From Capsulimonadaceae bacterium (GTDB lineage: Bacteria > Armatimonadota > Armatimonadia > Armatimonadales > Capsulimonadaceae): a stretch of DNA of 64,000 nucleotides. Positions 480 through 45,139 of the stretch are shown piece by piece. The position numbers and the translations under genes are program-made. The first letter of the stretch is position 1; each line of letters starts with the position of its first letter. Below the pieces are notes generated by a model. The model saw only the letters and a program-made list of their open reading frames with translations, searched no databases and was not told the DNA's origin. The stretch lies in assembly GCA_031292625.1 (NCBI GenBank), contig JARLGU010000041.1:124001-188000 (forward strand), in the 5' to 3' direction.

Positions 480-519
480 CAAAAACACCCGGCTTCCAAT
501 CTGCTGGAAAGCCGGGTGT
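480..519 (-). terminator. Rho-independent terminator of pilin gene
   Basis: Inverted arms at 485-498 and 505-519 (ACACCCGGCTTCCA against its complement with one extra A) form a strong hairpin with a six-base loop. On the minus strand the hairpin is followed directly by a T run (complement of 480-484). It lies about 25 bases after the pilin stop codon. Confidence 0.9.
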
Positions 520-542
520 CGAAGCAATAAGCTGGGGGTAGC

Positions 543-1586
543 TCAGTTGCAGGCGGTGTGGGCGCCATCGGCGTCCGTCGCCCAGTAGCACATGTTCGTG
601 ATAAGCTGGTCGTAGCGAACAGCCTTCACGTGGCCATCAGCAAAGAGGCTGTTGATCATGCCGTTGTGGCGGGAAGCCAGGTTGGTGATGTCCGTGGCAG
701 TTCCGGCATACGTGTTGGAGCCCGGGGTGTTCTGCTTGTAGCTCCAAGCATCGTTTCCGATGTTGGCCCAGTAGTTAACATACTGACCACCAGCCACACC
801 CGCATAGGTCACGTCATTTGCGATTGAGCCGGTCGGTCCGCCGGTATAGCCCGTGCCAGTTCCGCTGCCCGGGGTGCAAAGCCCCGATGCGCAGTTGAAG
901 TCAGGGCCAACGCCATAGTAGGTCGCATCGCAAGCAAGAAGTGTGCTCGCAGGGCGGGGAATGGAAGCAAGACCGACAGGCTTGGATGAACCAGTCACTG
1001 TCCCGGACGAAGCGTCGAACGGAGCGGCCGGGCTAAGGAAGACGTCATTGTGGCCGTAGCTGTTCTCACCACCATAGTCGTTGCCAGTGGCACCCTTGGT
1101 GCCGCTAGGAATGGCTAACTGATTCGTTGCAGTGTCGGAAGTAAATGCGTTCGCATTGGACGGGCAGATAAAGACAGCGTAGTTGTGGAGGTACGGCTGA
1201 AGCTTGTACATATAGTAGAAGCGGGTGTTAGAGTTGCTTGCACTAAATGCACCATTATCAAGACCGGCGTCAGGATATACGGCTGACATATCGGTTGAAG
1301 CGGCCGACGTGTCCTGGTACTGCGGGCAAACTTCATCAGGGGTGGACACTACTGTCCCCGTCGACGAACAGTTGTCACGGTGAGTGTAGAGCTTCTCGTC
1401 CCAGTCCTGAGCATACTGCAAGGATGCAGTTCCAATTTGCTTCAGGTTGTTGGCGCAAGAGCTCTGCCGGGCCTTTTCACGAGCCTGGGCAAACACGGGG
1501 AACAGAATCGCCGCGAGAATCGCGATAATCGCGATAACGACGAGGAGCTCAATAAGGGTAAAACCCTTTTTGTTGGTGATCTTCAT
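543..1586 (-). CDS. DUF1559-type prepilin (type II/IV pseudopilin-like)
   Basis: A secreted or surface pilin-like protein of about 347 residues. The short positively charged leader MKITNKK is followed by [20 protein letters not shown], the class III prepilin peptidase site and hydrophobic stalk, where the processed Phe would be methylated. The following [17 protein letters not shown] and NLKQIGTA are characteristic of DUF1559/H-X9-DG proteins, and the C-terminus carries [16 protein letters not shown], the H-X9-DG-like end motif. The start at 1586 is chosen because GGAG lies six bases upstream; the upstream in-frame ATG overlaps that site. Such pilins are numerous in Armatimonadota and Planctomycetes; the exact role (adhesion, secretion, surface fibre) is unknown. 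A Pho-box-like array lies about 140 bases upstream. Confidence 0.9.
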
Positions 1587-1692: not shown

Positions 1693-1747
1693 ATAATAGC
1701 ATTTGAATTCTGGCGTGTGCATTAACGCAGGGTTAAGTTTACTTTAA
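1693..1747 (-). promoter_or_regulatory. Triple TTAA array (Pho-box-like) and -10 box upstream of pilin
   Basis: TTAA occurs at 1722-1725, 1733-1736 and 1744-1747, exactly 11 bp apart. On the minus strand the units read TTTAAAG, CTTAACC and GTTAATG, and TATTAT (1698-1693), a good -10 candidate, follows 23 bases downstream in the direction of the pilin gene. OmpR/PhoB-family regulators bind direct repeats with this period, and cyanobacterial SphR boxes have a PyTTAAPyPy-type unit. The array overlaps the stop codon of the neighbouring gene. Function is inference. Confidence 0.5.
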
Positions 1748-2332
1748 ACTTCCGTCGGCAACGTTGTTAGAAAAATCAGATCGCATCGCCTGCGAGACAG
1801 ACCGCGGATCGATCATGCGCGAAATCCACGTTTCTGCCGGCATTTGATCAAGAGAACTATAGCTGACGATATGCACCCTCCCTGTAGAAAGGCACACGAC
1901 TACGTCGACAAACTCGCCCTGTTCTCCGCTAGAACCCAAAAAACGCCAAGCTACTTCCGGCCGAAATTTTGTGCTCAATACATCACGGTAGTTTGCGCCA
2001 TTGTAAAGCTGCCCAAGGAGCCCCCCAAGGGTCGAAATGGGAACCTTGGGGTTGAAGCCGATCAACCTTTCGCCAGGACAGGGTGTTGGCAGCGAGGAGC
2101 GAAAGTCTGCTGATGGTGCAGGGCACCCTACACCATTCATCACGGTACAGAACTTAAACGCTTCGACCCGGCTCGGATGCGCGAGGATATCTACGGCAAG
2201 CGGGCCAAGCCTGGAAGACGCAAAGTCGTCTGGCGCTTGAGGCGATAAGAAGGCGTACAATGCCATGGCGGCCACGCATATGACCGATATTGAAATCACT
2301 AAACCGAAGCGAGAGGAAGATCCGTGAAACAT
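1739..2332 (-). CDS. Hypothetical protein with N-terminal membrane anchor
   Basis: 197 residues. A hydrophobic segment at about residues 9-30 (LVISISVICVAAMALYAFL) acts as signal anchor or uncleaved signal peptide; the remainder is a soluble domain with two cysteine-containing stretches (FKFCTVMNGVGCPAP and LPTPCPGE) that could form disulfides outside the membrane. I recognise no family. No clear Shine-Dalgarno site precedes the ATG, so the start is uncertain. It lies upstream of the pilin gene on the same strand, and two Pho-box-like TTAA pairs lie upstream of it, so co-regulation with the pilin is possible. Confidence 0.65.
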   Translation of the reverse strand: MFHGSSSRFGLVISISVICVAAMALYAFLSPQAPDDFASSRLGPLAVDILAHPSRVEAFKFCTVMNGVGCPAPSADFRSSLPTPCPGERLIGFNPKVPISTLGGLLGQLYNGANYRDVLSTKFRPEVAWRFLGSSGEQGEFVDVVVCLSTGRVHIVSYSSLDQMPAETWISRMIDPRSVSQAMRSDFSNNVADGSLK

Positions 2333-2356
2333 GGTGTGAACATTACCATGTCCTTG

Positions 2357-2371
2357 TTAAGTGAGAATTAA
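2357..2371 (-). promoter_or_regulatory. TTAA-N7-TTAA pair, Pho-box-like
   Basis: TTAA at 2357-2360 and 2368-2371, 11 bp apart. In the minus direction it reads CTTAAT-N5-CTTAAC, the same orientation and unit as the array at the pilin. It lies 25 bases from the start codon of the small membrane protein at 1739-2332. Confidence 0.4.
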
Positions 2372-2459: not shown

Positions 2460-2474
2460 TTAAGATAGTGTTAA
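2460..2474 (-). promoter_or_regulatory. Second TTAA-N7-TTAA pair, Pho-box-like
   Basis: TTAA at 2460-2463 and 2471-2474, again 11 bp apart, reading CTTAAC-N5-CTTAAT on the minus strand. It sits in the 280-base divergent region between the genes at 1739-2332 and 2613-4469, so it could serve either; the orientation of the unit favours the minus-strand gene. Confidence 0.4.
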
Positions 2475-2612: not shown

Positions 2613-4469
2613 ATGCATCGATCCAATCGACTCCGCTCCGACCCCGTAACGCACAAGCGCGCCGGCGTTCCCTGGCGATTAATCGGCCTCCTCTTTACCG
2701 CCTCGGTGCTCATCTATCTGCCATGCGTTAACAATGGCTTCGTCAGCTATAACGACGCCGTCTACATTGTCAATAATCCAGACATCAACCCGGTTTCTCC
2801 GCAGTCCTTCGTGCGATACTGGACAGGTCCGCGAATTGGACTCTATCAGCCGATGGACTGCACACTCGGCGCCATAATCGCAATGGTTGCGCACATGGCA
2901 GCACCCGCCTCAAACATTGCTGCACTTGGCGGTACTCTGAATCCGCATGTCTATCATCTTGTCAGCGTTTTAGTGCACGCCCTTAATGCGCTTCTTTTAT
3001 ACTTTCTTCTGAGACGATTGGCCCTGTCTGAGATCGCATCCCTAAGCGGCGCTGGACTATTCGCCATACATCCAATGCAAGTTGAGAGTGTCGCATGGGC
3101 GTCAGCGTCCGACCGGCTATTCTGCATCATGTTCAGTATTCCAGCGCTTCTTCTTTACCTCCGTGCGCCCAATGCCTCAGAGACTGCGATCAAGACCTAT
3201 ACGCGTTACGGTGCTTCAGTTGTCCTGGGCATCCTGGCAGTTCTCTGCAAGCCAACCGCGATCGTATTGCCGTTGATTGCTCTCATCCTGGATAGAGAGC
3301 TCCTTCGCCATCGGTGGCGCACGAGCTTTGCGCGTTATGCGGTTTGGCAACTCGCTGTCTTGCCGATACTATTTCTCGCATCCGCTTCTGTCGCGCCGAC
3401 CGACCAAATCCCGCCTGTTCCGATTTCGAGCCGAATTTTCATCGCTGGAGATTCCTTAGCGTTTAGCTTGGGCAAGTTTCTCTTCCCTGTGAGACTGTCT
3501 CTCGATTATGGGCGCGCGCCGCAATTCGTACTGCAGCATTGGTGGGTCTTCGTAACGTGGGTGTTTCCAGCCGCAGTCGCCTTTGCTCTATGGCGTCTTA
3601 CGAGACCGGGCAGTCCGATCAGAACCGGTAGCTTAGTGTTTCTTATTGGTCTTGCTCCGACGCTAGGCCTAATAAGCTTTCCTTCGCAAATCGTGTCGAC
3701 CGTGGCAGACCGCTACATGTATCCTGCGCTTATTGGAGCATCGATCGTTGTTGGAGCGGTTGTCGACCGTCTAATGTTGCGCGCTCTTTGGAAGCCCTTT
3801 GCCTATGCAGGGGCAGCGTTTTCGCTAGCTGTCCTGGCACTTCTTACATTACTTCGGATCCCGGTCTGGTCGGATAGCATTTCTCTCATGCGCGATACCC
3901 TAAACGAAAATCCAAAGAGTTACAACGCACTGACCTATTTGGGCAAGGAGTACGAATCACGCGGGCAAAGCGGCAAGGCATTGCCTTTCTTCCTTTCAGC
4001 GAATGCGATTAGGCCAAACTACTACCAGCCACATTATAATCTGGCAACAGCCTATGCGGTCATGGGAAACTTCGACGCGGCGATTGCGGAGCTCAACGTA
4101 GCGCTCCAATATGCGCCAGACCACACTGAGACGGACCTTATGCTTGGCAACTGTTATCTCGCCAAGCGCGATCTTGCGAAGGCGAGGGCGGCGTACGAGA
4201 CAGCAATCAAGGTGCAGCCAGATGACGCATTGGCCTTTTATGATTTAGCCAACTTGGCGCTTCTGCAAGGGGACTACTATACGGCGGAACGTGATTTTGC
4301 GATGACGATTCACTTTGCGCCGCGAGACGCATTCGCCCATGCGCACCTCGCCAAGGTCCTAATGCGTGTAGGAGATCTCGACCAGGCTCAGTCGGAAGCA
4401 CAGCTAGCGCAGTCATTGGCCGCCGGATCCAGGGATTACCTGGAAATCATGCGCCTCCTTAGCCACTAG
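2613..4469 (+). CDS. TMTC-like polytopic membrane protein with C-terminal TPR repeats
   Basis: 618 residues. The N-terminal two-thirds is a GT-C-like membrane region with about ten hydrophobic helices. The text NNGFVSYNDAVYIVNNPDI resembles the first extracytoplasmic loop of TMTC/PMT-like proteins, where an F..DD motif carries the catalytic acid; here it reads ND, keeping one acid. HPMQVESVAWASASDRLFC is another signature of this family. From about residue 420 to the end there are four to five tetratricopeptide repeats (for example ALPFFLSANAIRPNYYQPHY and AKARAAYETAIKVQPDDALA). In eukaryotes TMTC proteins are O-mannosyltransferases; bacterial homologues are uncharacterised, so sugar transfer to secreted proteins is inference. 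GAGG eight bases upstream supports the start. The next gene follows after 46 bases and is probably co-transcribed. Confidence 0.85.
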   Translation: MHRSNRLRSDPVTHKRAGVPWRLIGLLFTASVLIYLPCVNNGFVSYNDAVYIVNNPDINPVSPQSFVRYWTGPRIGLYQPMDCTLGAIIAMVAHMAAPASNIAALGGTLNPHVYHLVSVLVHALNALLLYFLLRRLALSEIASLSGAGLFAIHPMQVESVAWASASDRLFCIMFSIPALLLYLRAPNASETAIKTYTRYGASVVLGILAVLCKPTAIVLPLIALILDRELLRHRWRTSFARYAVWQLAVLPILFLASASVAPTDQIPPVPISSRIFIAGDSLAFSLGKFLFPVRLSLDYGRAPQFVLQHWWVFVTWVFPAAVAFALWRLTRPGSPIRTGSLVFLIGLAPTLGLISFPSQIVSTVADRYMYPALIGASIVVGAVVDRLMLRALWKPFAYAGAAFSLAVLALLTLLRIPVWSDSISLMRDTLNENPKSYNALTYLGKEYESRGQSGKALPFFLSANAIRPNYYQPHYNLATAYAVMGNFDAAIAELNVALQYAPDHTETDLMLGNCYLAKRDLAKARAAYETAIKVQPDDALAFYDLANLALLQGDYYTAERDFAMTIHFAPRDAFAHAHLAKVLMRVGDLDQAQSEAQLAQSLAAGSRDYLEIMRLLSH

Positions 4470-6293: not shown

Positions 6294-6308
6294 TTAATAT
6301 TGTCTTAA
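6294..6308 (+). promoter_or_regulatory. TTAA-N7-TTAA pair, Pho-box-like
   Basis: TTAA at 6294-6297 and 6305-6308, 11 bp apart, the same unit as upstream of the pilin and the phosphatase genes. The next downstream large gene is the lipobox protein at 6676, about 370 bases away, so the target is uncertain. Confidence 0.35.
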
Positions 6309-6354
6309 TGCAGCCAGTGCACAATTGGCATTGGATGTTGGGCGAGCGGTCGGT

Positions 6355-6376
6355 CCAATTGCGAGTTCGCAATTGG
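6355..6376. repeat. Perfect 10-bp inverted repeat
   Basis: Arms CCAATTGCGA (6355-6364) and TCGCAATTGG (6367-6376) are separated by two bases. No T run follows on either strand, so it is not a terminator. A near-symmetric 22-bp palindrome of this kind is typical of a dimeric repressor operator. Confidence 0.5.
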
Positions 6377-6434
6377 AGCCGATTGCATACAGAAAGTGGT
6401 TTCCACACGATCACTTTAGCTGTTGGGTAATGGG

Positions 6435-6626
6435 ATGCGTTTTGAGATCGGAAGAACTTCGACTCTGTTCTGTAACAACGAAACCGGTCGCGCTCAAATC
6501 GCCAAGGAGGTTGCTGATGGTCCTTTCCCAACGGACGGTGAGATTGTCGGCAGCGAGCCAATTTCTTATTCGGTCTATTCGCTGCAAATTATCGGGGGCA
6601 GTTTACCCCTAATATCTTACCGCTAA
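6435..6626 (+). CDS. Possible small protein, 63 residues
   Basis: An open frame starting MRFEIGRTSTLFCNN and ending in YSVYSLQIIGGSLPLISYR. The composition is not obviously noise, but there is no Shine-Dalgarno site and no recognised family. It occupies most of the gap before the lipobox protein gene. Could equally be chance. Confidence 0.18.
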   Translation: MRFEIGRTSTLFCNNETGRAQIAKEVADGPFPTDGEIVGSEPISYSVYSLQIIGGSLPLISYR

Positions 6627-6675
6627 TGTAGTATATGGGCATCGAATGCATTCAGATGCAGGTTCTTAATCGATA

Positions 6676-9600
6676 ATGTTGATTAGACGGGCAAAGGCAA
6701 ATCGGGCGTTGATCTGGCTCGTCGCTCTGACGTTTGTTCTTGCGCTGAGCGGGTGCGGGGGCTCGTCTGCGTCGCAAGACGCGCAGATCAATAAGATCCT
6801 GCATAACCACCATCTAACCACCAAGCAGAAGCACGATCTCATCGCGGTTGTCCAGGCGCAACATGCTTTTGGCGCAATTATTCTGCCAGGGGTTGGCGTG
6901 GCGGTGTTCGGCCTGTTTTCAATACGCGTCGGTTATAAGATCTACAAACTTAAGAAGCAGAGAGATCTTGAGAAGGAGCAGTATCGGCGCCGTTGTGAGC
7001 GGCAGCTCAAGGCCATGGAAGAGCTGTACGCGCCTAAGCCTCCTGCGCCCGAAGATCCTTATGTCATATTGCAGCGCGCCACGGAAGCTATCCCCATTGA
7101 AGAATGCACGATGTCCTTCTTTACATCGCGCCCAATGGCTGTCTCGGATGCGGTCGACGTTACCCTAATTATTCGGGGAACCGTTGTCGTCGTCGATGTG
7201 GACAGGACCGAGTTTGTCGACATTCGCGCAGGGCGAATGCCCCTCGTGCGAACGTTTAGCATCGACGGCGTCACCAGGCCGTGGTACGAGTGGGATGGCT
7301 ACTTCCCGTATAAGCACTATTGGCCGTCCGTTTCGCAAGGCTGGGCGTGGCCGGATAGTCGCATCTCGTGCGGCTGGACGGAACTCGACCAACTCGAGCC
7401 CGGTATACCGGCCTATACGAGCGGCGAAGGCCGCGTCGAAATAGACTGGGCGGATGTCATCCGTCGGCGATCCGGCGTTCTTTACCGCTGGTCGCGAGAA
7501 AAGCGTTCGCTCGTAAAGGCCCTGAACCCCAAACTCGCCGTATCCTACCGGCCGCCGCGCCCTCTGTCGAAAGTTCGCGGGACAGCACATGAGGCTGCGC
7601 TGATCGCGGGATTGGATCCTCGTGTCAGGGCATTCAGCCTGGTAAAACATTTGCGCAAGTCTCGTGCACCCGGCGGCGCCTACGCAGATCGAAAGGTGGA
7701 AGTAGTTGCGCCAGAAATTCCGCGACGCTTAGGGGCACTCTCCGAGACGACAAGGAAGCGCCGCCTCCGGAAGTCGCTGATCGAAATTCGGCCTAACCAA
7801 GAGGCGAGCGCGTTGGACAAGTCCAAGAATGCAGCGTCCGCGGATGCTGCGCATGCGCTCCATAAATCGCTCGTTAAACTCGACGTGGACGCAAATGAGA
7901 AGGACGCTGCGCAAATTGAGCATAGCGAAGGCGCCGTTGCACAGCCTGGGGCTCAACGAAAGAGGACGAAGCCACGAAAGCCTTCCGCCGCTTTGCCAGA
8001 TTCCAAGACCTGGACGCCGCCGGTTGACGCTCCGGTGGGATGGGACGAAGCGCCGCGAGTCCCGAACGGAGCGCCGATGTGGCAAGCTCCCGACGGAACC
8101 CAGGCGTTCAAATATGAGCCCGCGCGTTCTCAGGCAAACGAAGCGCCGGCTCAAGGAACGGCAGTCGCCGCCGAACCGCCGCCGTTTCCGGTCGCGTGGG
8201 CAGATCAGATTAAGGCGCTTCATAAGGAGCTCGAGGAGTCCTTCTTGAGGGCGCGCGAATGGAATGCCGAGCCCCCTGCCAACGATCGGTCAAGTGAGGA
8301 ATCCTCGGTCGACAATGAGGATTACACGGATGAGACAAATCAAGAACCGTTAAGTGTAGAGGAAGAAGTCATGCCAGCTGGCGGTGTCGCGGAATACACC
8401 CGGGAAGAACAGTCGAATGCGAACCGGTTTACGTTCGTTGAGATGGATGAAGAAAGCGTCATAAGCGGCGAGCCTTACGAATCGCACACGAACTCGCACC
8501 GTATGGATTTTCTATCCGACGAAGGCGAACTTGCGAACGCGGCAAGCGTATCCGAAGAGGCGTTAGAAGAATATTGCGACCCGATTGACAGCGGTTCCAT
8601 CGCAGCAAGCATGAGCGCGTCCGAAGATTCCGAAGATGCGGCGGCGCAAGCGCCTCAGGGTCCGGCCGAAATGACGGTCCGAGACGAAAATCAAGACGCC
8701 GCCGTAATTGAGCAGCCTGCACCTCTTATGGATGCGGCTCCCGTCATTCCTGACGCGGAGACGGGGACAGGGGAATCGGTGCCAAGTGACGTCCAAGAGG
8801 CTTCCGAGACCAGCGCCGAGAAGAGCGAGCCTCCGGCTAAAAGGCGGGCATACCGGCTCCGGTACCGGTCTAACAATCGAACCGAAAGCGAGGACGATGC
8901 TGCGCCTCTCAAGACGCCGAGTGACGATCAAGCGCTCCCTCTTGCCGAGGATTCTCTCGTGGCAAGCGCGCAAGAATCTTCTTTGCCTGCTCCCGAAATC
9001 CAGCCGGCTGCGACACCTACTCCTTCGAACAATGAAGCCGCGGCGCCGGTTGAACCGGCGAAAAGCGGGAGCCGGTTTAAGAAGCGAAAGTCCTTGCGGC
9101 CCCCTGCCCCGCGCGAGGTCCAATATCCGCCTACCTGGCCAGGTTTTCCGAATCCGCCCAGCCCGTACTACGCGCCGCCGGGATACCAGACAGCGCCCTA
9201 CCCATATCCACCAGCCGGAGCGCCTTATCCAGTCACTGACTCTGCCCATCCGCCGCTGCAGGCCCCGTCGCCATTGGCGCCTCCGGCCGCCAGTGAACAA
9301 TCGCCGCCGCCTCAATGGTACGCGGCTCCGCCTAACGGCGAGCCACAGTTCAACGGCCATAATGGGCAACAGCCAATTCCATGGAATCCGGCAGGGGCTC
9401 CGCCATACTCGCCTCCGGCTAGCCCGCCGAGCTACTCAAACGGACATGGGGCTCCTCCTCCGCTCGATACGACTAGCGCCGAAGGGGTAACCGGCGAAAG
9501 CGTGCCGCAAGGGCCTGAAACGACGTCGCATCGCGCTCAACATGCCCACCAATCGAATTTGGTTCGCGCAAGCGTGGGATCCGGGCGGGTGTCTCCCAAT

Positions 9601-43047: not shown

Positions 43048-43078
43048 TTAACTTTCCCTTAATCTTTAAATGGTATGC
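43048..43078 (+). promoter_or_regulatory. Pho-box-like repeat and -10 upstream of phosphatase gene
   Basis: TTAA at 43048-43051 and 43059-43062, 11 bp apart. The units ATTAACTT and CTTAATCT match the cyanobacterial PyTTAAPyPy(T/A) Pho unit in all but one position. TATGCT (43073-43078) follows ten bases after the second unit, the spacing at which PhoB-type boxes replace the -35. The target gene, at 43130, encodes a phosphatase-family enzyme, which fits phosphate control. Confidence 0.5.
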
Positions 43079-43129
43079 TCGCGGCCAAACTGTTTCCACG
43101 CCTGTCATCGAGATTTTAAAGGACATAAC

Positions 43130-45139
43130 ATGCACCTGTATCGTACTACCCCGTCCACGCTCAGTGCTTTTGCAATCACTGTACTCCTGGCGACGTGCTG
43201 TGCGTCCGTCTCGTGTACTGCGGCTCCTCGCCGGAACGTGGTCATCTTCGTAGCCGACGGCCTCCGCGCGGGATCGGTGACACGCGCGAATATGCCCACC
43301 CTTTACGCACTTGCGGCGAGAGGCGTCCGGTTTGAGAATAGCCACTCCCTCTTTCCCACGGTGACGATGCCGAACTCGTCGGCGATCGCAACGGGACACT
43401 GTCTCGGAGATACCGGCATACGCGGCAACGTCCTCTTTATCGGCCGCCGGTCGCTCGCAAACGCGCCAACTCCAGGGGCGCTTGCACCGGCTATCGAAAA
43501 CGACGAGGTGGAGGGAGACATTGATGAGCTTTACGTAGGCAGTCTGCTTGGCGAGGAGACTCTCCTCGCCGCGGCGAGAAAACATGGCTACAACACGGCG
43601 GCTATCGGCAAGCTGGGTCCGACGCTGATGCAAGATGTCTCGCAGGGAGCGCTCGTAAACGGGGTCGCGCAGATCCCGCAAACCATTTTTATCGACGACT
43701 CCACCGGGAGGCGAAGCGGCATTCCGCTCAGCCCGGCCGTATTGCAAGCGCTTGCGGCCGCGTCCCTCCCCGCGATTGCGCCAGACCGGTCCAATGGCAG
43801 TGCTCCAAAATCCCAGCAGAGCAACGGTTACACCGGTAACAGCACCAAGCCGGGGACGCTCGCCGCGAACACAGTCCAGCAACAATACTTCGTCGACGCT
43901 CTCACGCATGCCGTCTTGCCGCAATTCAAGGCCGCTGGAAAGCCCTTCGTCGTCGTTTACTGGTCGAGGGATCCGGATGGCACTCAGCACAACCAGGGCG
44001 ACAGCCTTGGCGCTCTCAGTCCGGGAGTCAACGGGCCGACATCCCTTGCGGCGCTCCGCAATGCCGACACGAACCTCGCACAGATATTAGACGCGCTCAA
44101 GCAGCAGGGGCTCATAAACAATACGGACATATTCGTAACGTCGGATCATGGGTTCAACACGATCAGCAAGCGCGAAATCGACAACCACGGCGGCGTCACG
44201 AAAAGCTACGCGGCTAGCATTACATATCGTGACGCGACGGGGCGTCAGGATGTCCCAACCGGCTCTTTGCCGCCGGGGTTCCTCGCCATCGATCTGGCGC
44301 ATGCCCTCGGGCTGAAGCTCTATGACACGGACGCGTTTATCGGCAGCGGCGCAGCCCAAACCTGCAAGCTGATCGACCCAACGCTTTCGCAAGCGTCTGA
44401 CACGGTTTTGCAACATCCGTCTACAGGCAGCGCCGTGCTCGGCGGATCTGGCGGCGCGGCAATTCCCGGAGATGCTCAAGCGGCCGTGCTGGCGAACGGC
44501 GGCGCGGATCTGATCTACTTGTTCGGCGCAAGCGCGACGAACGTTCGCGAACAAGCGACGCAAATCGTGGACTTCCTGTTGAAGCAAGATTACGTCAGCG
44601 GCGTATTTGTCCACGATCGCATCGGCAAAATTCAGGGAACGCTTCCGCTCTCAACGATCGGTCTGCTCGGTTCCGCAAAGCTTCCCGATCCTTCGATCGT
44701 CGTCAACTTCCGCAGCTTCGCACTGGACCCAAAGAACCCGCTTCAGACGAGCGTTCTGATTTCGGACACGGCCCTGCAGGAGGGCCAGGGACAACACGGC
44801 GGCTTCGATCGCGCGAACACCTACAACTTTATGGCGGCATCGGGACCTGATTTTAAGCAAAACTATGTTGATCCCGCCCCCGCGAGCAACGCAGACATCG
44901 CTCAGACGCTGGCGAGCCTCTTGCACCTCGCGCTCCCTTCACGCGGCTCCCTTGCCGGTCGCGTCCTCGAAGAGGGCTTTCTTGGACACCCGAACGCGAA
45001 TCCAAAGTCGATCAAATCTGGTTACATTACGTCGAGCCTGGACGCCCGCGGCGCGGGCGTCGTCCTCCGGTACGTCGAGATCGATGGGCGCCGGTACTTC
45101 GATGCCGCCGGTTCGCCCGGGCGAACCAACGGGCTATAG
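43130..45139 (+). CDS. Secreted alkaline phosphatase/type I phosphodiesterase-family enzyme
   Basis: 669 residues. The signal peptide (TTPSTLSAFAITVLLATCCASVSC, with a possible lipobox-like SVSC) precedes the alkaline phosphatase superfamily core. Visible elements are VVIFVADGLRAGSV (metal Asp), FPTVTMPNSSAIATGH (Thr nucleophile region), YWSRDPDGTQHNQGD (Asp and His ligands), FVTSDHGFNTI (Asp-His ligands) and GQGQHGGFDRANTYNFMAASGP (His ligand). The ligand set is that of nucleotide pyrophosphatase/phosphodiesterases. It likely frees phosphate from organic esters outside the cytoplasm. AAAGGA seven bases upstream supports the start. Stands alone, with the Pho-box-like array upstream. Confidence 0.87.
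   Translation: MHLYRTTPSTLSAFAITVLLATCCASVSCTAAPRRNVVIFVADGLRAGSVTRANMPTLYALAARGVRFENSHSLFPTVTMPNSSAIATGHCLGDTGIRGNVLFIGRRSLANAPTPGALAPAIENDEVEGDIDELYVGSLLGEETLLAAARKHGYNTAAIGKLGPTLMQDVSQGALVNGVAQIPQTIFIDDSTGRRSGIPLSPAVLQALAAASLPAIAPDRSNGSAPKSQQSNGYTGNSTKPGTLAANTVQQQYFVDALTHAVLPQFKAAGKPFVVVYWSRDPDGTQHNQGDSLGALSPGVNGPTSLAALRNADTNLAQILDALKQQGLINNTDIFVTSDHGFNTISKREIDNHGGVTKSYAASITYRDATGRQDVPTGSLPPGFLAIDLAHALGLKLYDTDAFIGSGAAQTCKLIDPTLSQASDTVLQHPSTGSAVLGGSGGAAIPGDAQAAVLANGGADLIYLFGASATNVREQATQIVDFLLKQDYVSGVFVHDRIGKIQGTLPLSTIGLLGSAKLPDPSIVVNFRSFALDPKNPLQTSVLISDTALQEGQGQHGGFDRANTYNFMAASGPDFKQNYVDPAPASNADIAQTLASLLHLALPSRGSLAGRVLEEGFLGHPNANPKSIKSGYITSSLDARGAGVVLRYVEIDGRRYFDAAGSPGRTNGL

Follow-up and report, generated by a model that had tools for sequence, protein, structure and literature searches.

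The window, by which we mean the whole stretch of 64,000 nucleotides analysed here, contains a gene for a pilin-like protein preceded by a regularly spaced TTAA array. The features at this locus are as follows.

484..520, minus strand: terminator-like hairpin with a U tail (z -5.1), 3' of the pilin gene
543..1586, minus strand: DUF1559 / H-X9-DG pseudopilin gene, 347 aa, from domain models
1693..1698, minus strand: -10 hexamer TATTAT, with a 17-bp spacer and a TG before it, from a consensus promoter scan
1716..1721, minus strand: -35-like hexamer TGCACA, abutting the last TTAA unit, from the same scan
1722..1747, minus strand: Pho-box-type array of three TTAA in 11-bp steps, read from the sequence; its units, in the minus-strand reading, are TTTAAAG (1744-1747), CTTAACC (1733-1736) and GTTAATG (1722-1725)
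1739..2332, minus strand: orphan ORF, 197 aa, with a signal-like N-terminus by eye

The pilin gene starts with an ATG at 1586, with GGAG six bases ahead of it; an in-frame ATG is also present at 1598. The protein is laid out as an N-methyl helix, a DUF1559 body and an H-X9-DG end, and it passes all three cut-offs (PF07596, 52.6 bits against 23.3; PF07963, 37.2 against 21.2; TIGR04294, 19.8 against 19). An identity with GspG or PilA was rejected, the protein being below both curated cut-offs: it scored 35.7 against 88.85 with the GspG model (TIGR01710), where only the N-terminal helix was matched, and 40.3 against 400 with that of the type IV major pilin PilA (NF041775). Structure prediction from the single sequence gave a mean pLDDT of 35.7 and was confident in the N-terminal helix only. 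The hairpin and U tail behind the gene suggest that it is probably transcribed alone, as a single-gene unit, and no secretion gene was recognised among the genes listed next to it. The pilin belongs to a large family: first-look searches of the genome (5.77 Mb) returned 289 DUF1559 candidates with the window pilin and 410 with the Pfam model, and in the phylum the numbers run from dozens to hundreds per genome.

The pilin is flanked by two related multi-membrane TPR proteins (window 2613-4469 and C6:122193-123944, the latter also L022:8193-9944), which are 34% identical to each other and are each preceded by a TTAA pair. From inspection by eye, we take them to resemble TMTC-type glycosyltransferases, and they might modify the pilin.

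The array immediately precedes a sigma-70-like promoter, TGCACA-17-TATTAT (1721-1693, minus strand), which points towards the DUF1559/N-methyl pseudopilin gene. The initial annotation had described TTAA at 1722, 1733 and 1744 in 11-bp steps with TATTAT 23 bases on, directed to the pilin, and this was confirmed; measured from the start of the last unit, the -10 hexamer lies at 27 bp. From the position of this hexamer, transcription would be expected to start near 1686. The promoter scan was consensus-based and blind to the array, and as it returned 3 sites in 2.3 kb where 1.9 were expected, it proves nothing by itself. One small correction applies: the upstream part of the pilin array overlaps the stop codon of the orphan ORF 1739-2332, if this ORF is real. 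The ORF was missed by the in-house gene caller and had no match in 40 relatives, so that among 41 genomes it is confined to its own.

Four further arrays were found in the window, together with the gene that had been called a phosphatase.

2340..2371, minus strand: second array, one TTAA pair (2357-2371) with TAATGT (2345-2340) at pst-type distance, directed towards the orphan ORF
2460..2474, no strand assigned: third array, one TTAA pair, between the orphan ORF and the plus-strand gene at 2613
6294..6325, plus strand: fourth array, a TTAA pair (6294-6308) with CACAAT (6320-6325) at pst-type distance
43048..43079, plus strand: fifth array, a TTAA pair (43048-43062) with TATGCT (43074-43079) at pst-type distance, preceding the phosphodiesterase gene
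43130..45139, plus strand: gene of the type I phosphodiesterase / nucleotide pyrophosphatase family (PF01663)

The fourth array is separated from the next called gene by 401 bp. In this region (window 6294-6676), the leader of about 350 bases ahead of that gene contains a perfect 11-bp hairpin, TCCAATTGCGA/TCGCAATTGGA, seen by eye, and could be an RNA element; Rfam gave no match for it.

In total, six TTAA-N7-TTAA pair matches were counted in the window, in agreement with the five arrays reported initially. The chance expectation given with them, about one pair per 64 kb with equal base use, was too high, since dinucleotide shuffles give 0.15. In the entire genome (5.77 Mb, 65 contigs), 40 such pairs are present. 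Over the 18 spacings from N3 to N20, TTAA pairs amount to 323, and the mean of the other 17 spacings is 16.6. A backwards control yielded 42 pairs against these 40, but the conclusion of no enrichment was rejected because AATT is 1.6 times commoner than TTAA and the other TTAA spacings are the better control. An equal frequency of the pair inside genes was looked for and not seen: by a crude in-house gene caller, 32 of the 40 pairs are intergenic, 3 are at an edge and 5 lie within genes.

On four contigs (1.09 Mb, 15% non-coding), among which C6 and C60 had been picked for carrying the window and phoB, step 11 gave 14 non-coding matches and 1 coding match, against about 1.4 and 1.6, respectively, for other steps. 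Non-coding DNA is AT-richer, and AATT, TATA and ATAT gave no comparable peak at step 11. For C20 and C34 taken alone, step 11 was not above the neighbouring steps (2 each).

The genome encodes only three regulators with a DNA-binding domain of the OmpR/PhoB type. Their best NCBIfam models are PhoB, a CopR/CzcR-like model (copper/silver type) and KdpE, and all three score below the curated cut-offs of these models. The regulator at L019:6122-6844 is called PhoB-like on account of its best score, 241.4 bits with TIGR02154, yet this is under the cut-off of 296.2. Its gene is followed, in this order, by those of a PhoR/PnpS-type kinase, pstC, pstA and pstB. In the gap between the kinase gene and pstC, four TTAA units are spaced at 11, 9 and 11 bp, the last of them beginning 15 bp ahead of TACGAT. 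The single pstS copy of the genome is likewise preceded by an 11-9-11 array, with TAGAAT at 15. When the relatives were included with this genome, the exact 11-bp pair was present at 11 of 30 pstS loci, where the -10, read by eye, is mostly at 15-16. In this genome, the pst genes lie away from the window pilin.

The same kind of signal is known from other bacteria. In the parts of PMC1906773 drawn on here, the Pho box of the cyanobacterial PhoB, SphR, contains three or more copies of the 8-bp repeat CTTAACCT joined by a 3-bp linker, and that of E. coli likewise has 8-bp repeats and a 3-bp linker. The arrays described here share with the SphR box the TTAA core, the 11-bp period, the presence of at least two units and the location before pst genes and phosphatases. 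Compared with CTTAACCT, the cores read TTTAAAG, CTTAACC and GTTAATG in the window and CTTAACC or CTTAATC in relatives. As core and period match these repeats, the TTAA array at pst and at the pilin is, judged by its sequence, a putative Pho box of the cyanobacterial type. It differs from the known cyanobacterial boxes in being found in Armatimonadota, in standing before a DUF1559 pseudopilin (none appears in the same parts of PMC1906773) and in having, at the window pilin, the -10 one helical turn further away. With the E. coli box, it has in common the period, the tandem direct repeats and the promoter-adjacent position, and the pst promoters here keep the short distance to the -10; unlike that box, it has a TTAA core, and the distance at the window pilin is 27 instead of 15-16.

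Conservation of the array was followed before the orthologs of the pilin. Among 20 relatives, five full-length matches at 42-49% identity were found, and the array precedes all five. With a profile of these six sequences, the window pilin included, 48 of 291 genomes gave matches at E 1e-50, 58 in all. Of the 58, 41 matches in 38 genomes scored 275 bits or more and the next match 217, and owing to this gap the 41 were taken as orthologs. Further ortholog loci scored 341 or more against 211 or less for paralogs, the scoring covering 26 of the 28 further loci (all but L377 and L378). The array survey comprised 30 of the 41 ortholog loci and, as a control, 47 paralog loci from the window-pilin and Pfam searches, one paralog with a short upstream region (L341) being left out; a TTAA pair was sought in the 400 bp that precede the FTLIEL motif.

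An 11-bp pair was present before 25 of the 30 ortholog loci, in six families (f1 5/5, f2 1/1, f9 10/12, f24 2/2, f28 1/1, f14 6/8, f6 0/1), against 4 of the 47 paralogs (Fisher p 2e-11, a value that ignores shared ancestry). For steps of 7-10 and 12-16 bp, a pair was found at 0-2 of the 30 ortholog loci. Five ortholog loci have no exact pair, and in three of them (L356, L357, L376) altered units in the 11-bp register were seen by eye. A scan with one mismatch allowed in three units detected 26 of 30 orthologs and 3 of 47 paralogs. On the four contigs of the window's own genome, the pair precedes only 1 of 41 genes with an FTLIEL start, which is the window pilin. In addition, the ortholog adjoins pst or pho genes in 3 of 25 relatives: it lies beside pstSCAB-phoBR in G089, immediately 3' of pstCAB on the same strand in G102, and divergent from phoU in G080. 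In G001 and G005, the ortholog is preceded by what we take, from motifs read by eye, to be an acylglycerol-phosphate acyltransferase gene and followed by one for glycerol-3-phosphate dehydrogenase.

Conservation extends to the protein. Many residues outside the helix are near-invariant (29 or 30 of 30 orthologs), including D61, D63, H69, R70, D220, Y224, W273, N275, D317, G318, H319, K321, C333, W335 and C346, and a near-invariant run around G165-D181 holds NSYGHND. This pattern points to a role that is specific, in binding or catalysis, and not plainly structural. A search of solved structures with the ortholog profile gave matches confined to the N-terminal helix region of pilins.

The distance from the array to the -10 varies between branches, and the branch of the window keeps one extra helical turn. 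The best -10 is at 26-27 bp from the start of the last unit for the window pilin and for G001, G005, G002 and G008; in G003, a weaker TAACAT was seen by eye at 27 from an out-of-register third unit. In G039, G069 and G070 the -10 is at 15, and several other loci of f9 have it at 20-21. At the window pilin the -10 is thus about one turn further out than the 15-16 of pst, so that the spacing is not the textbook one; a -10 about 10 bp behind the box, which is typical of Pho boxes without defining them, is not found there. Retention of one extra turn would fit activation from a single face of the helix. In f14, 5 of 6 arrays read GTTAA towards the pilin, which is the reverse orientation; in this family, the array may work the other way round or belong to a different gene.

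Across Armatimonadota, triple arrays with the 11-bp step were found in 105 of 291 genomes, against 21 of 291 for the 12-bp step. In the 36 genomes of f1, f2 and f9, step 11 accounts for 296 triples, step 12 for 2 and the backwards control for 6. For the reading of targets, 75 triple arrays in 73 loci were used, the window's own included, and 73 arrays were kept after removal of duplicates. The target gene was assigned by the better -10 at an offset of 14-17, which gave 38 arrays with a clear direction and a gene; the other 35 of the 73 consisted of 28 without a clear direction, among them the window's own with its -10 at 27, and 7 without a gene.

The commonest target behind these 38 arrays is an N-methyl pseudopilin (N_methyl 10, DUF1559 9), followed by Phosphoesterase (3), phosphate-selective porin (3), SpoU methylase (2), binding-protein transport permease (2), alkaline phosphatase (1) and others. 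By the candidate counts of the search with the window pilin, DUF1559 genes are roughly 1-6% of genes, if 0.9 gene per kb is assumed, and the 26% seen among the targets clearly exceeds this share. As only 2 of the 10 pseudopilin targets belong to the ortholog group of the window pilin, PhoB appears to drive several pseudopilins. The SpoU-type RNA methylase would be an unexpected Pho target; in relatives, TTAA arrays precede such genes at L275 and L277 (Pfam) and at L347:8033-8958 (by eye).

The initial annotation had proposed that one OmpR/PhoB-type regulator may control both the pilin and the phosphatase. The pilin part of this proposal is supported by the arrays at pst and by their occurrence before 25 of 30 orthologs against 4 of 47 paralogs. 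The phosphatase part stands on thinner ground: its gene has one TTAA pair with the -10 TATGCT at pst-type distance, and no clear ortholog was found in 40 relatives, where only weak partial matches were obtained.

It should be asked whether the regulator is PhoB at all. Binding to 11-bp direct repeats is common to OmpR-family regulators in general, and the arrays also precede genes without an obvious phosphate role, such as the SpoU RNA methylase (2 of 38), as would be expected if another member of the family governed pst and the pilin in a wider envelope or starvation response. However, the genome has just the three regulators described, the other two being nearest to KdpE and CopR/CzcR, one array is located between phoR and pstC, and the Pho boxes of cyanobacteria are of the TTAA type in the parts of PMC1906773 drawn on here. 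We therefore regard the reading of the arrays by a regulator other than PhoB as unlikely.

Still less probable is that, in some or all genomes, the pilin is a bystander and the array belongs to a gene beside it or divergent from it. The GTTAA reading of the f14 units and the divergent gene upstream at L374, L375 and L369 are in favour of such an arrangement; yet the window and several other loci have a non-divergent upstream gene and units that read CTTAA towards the pilin, and the gene downstream is the pilin ortholog in every case, whereas the upstream genes vary. As for an AT-rich element upstream of the promoter, or mere chance, with no regulator involved, the AT-richness both of TTAA and of non-coding DNA and the lack of step-11 enrichment on C20 and C34 would agree with it. 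This explanation is hardly credible in view of the lack of a comparable peak at 11 for the other words (AATT, TATA, ATAT), the lower counts at other steps and the conservation before orthologs at 11 bp only.

We thus consider it highly probable that the array is a Pho box by which a PhoB-type regulator turns on a phylum-wide phosphate-starvation pseudopilin, with binding and induction at low phosphate predicted from the DNA. The array, its spacing, its presence at the pst genes and its conservation before the orthologs of this pilin among paralogs were computed directly. In this scheme, the PhoB-type response regulator, encoded with PhoR beside the pst operon, would dock on head-to-tail units one helical turn apart. 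When phosphate is low, phosphorylated PhoB would align on the three units just upstream of the weak -35 and help the housekeeping RNA polymerase to start from TATTAT, near 1686. The pseudopilin would then be exported, cleaved by the prepilin peptidase and retained at or beyond the membrane, where it would most likely support scavenging outside the cell, for example within a secretion pseudopilus or, as a surface protein, by binding a source of phosphorus.

HxcT of Pseudomonas aeruginosa is a pseudopilin. In this organism, the Hxc type II secretion system, including HxcT, is raised by phosphate limitation and HxcT is found only under this condition, and in Caulobacter a surface lipoprotein has been linked to type II secretion and alkaline phosphatase activity (PMC9769906 and PMC2996285, respectively, each in the parts drawn on here). 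As in the Hxc system, a pseudopilin is tied to phosphate limitation in Armatimonadota, here as a prediction from the array; unlike HxcT, which is part of a full secretion system, it is encoded by a single gene and belongs to another pseudopilin family. Planctomycete DUF1559 proteins have the same domain and also form a large expanded family, with 74 genes in Rhodopirellula baltica described as a solute-binding, shock-regulated family; in contrast to the situation here, no phosphate link is mentioned for them in the parts of PMC2754498 drawn on.

In titles and abstract beginnings of the open-access literature searched, we found no description of such a box before a pseudopilin, or of a pseudopilin as a Pho member, and no study of a Pho regulon for Armatimonadota. 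The box type is already known; a phylum-wide pseudopilin under it appears to be new. To our knowledge, no function is known for DUF1559 proteins. With a conserved signal for phosphate regulation before one DUF1559 orthologous group, there is a condition under which the function of this group can be sought, and the large family gains a first link to a nutrient. Furthermore, the array can be used directly as a motif for the Pho regulon of Armatimonadota.

A more specific version, in which the window pilin is the one dedicated phosphate-starvation pseudopilin among its DUF1559 paralogs and captures phosphorus or displays enzymes as a surface protein outside the cell, is doubtful, although it is somewhat less so than the alternatives weighed above. 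The ortholog group has its own signature outside the helix (GYGG-NSYGHND, DGH-K, C333, C346). If this version were true, the expanded family would comprise surface proteins that are nutrient-specific, each with its own regulator.

Two other loci with TTAA arrays may be mentioned. At L024:7648-7768 (C23:49647-49767 of the window's own genome), a GC-rich hairpin and seven T come no more than about 80 bases after a triple array that has TATACT at pst-type distance, and no gene is called in the interval, which makes this locus a candidate small RNA under PhoB control; over the window and L024, Rfam gave one tRNA and no other match. At L287 (G008:C75), two DUF1559 genes stand in tandem, each with its own TTAA pair upstream.
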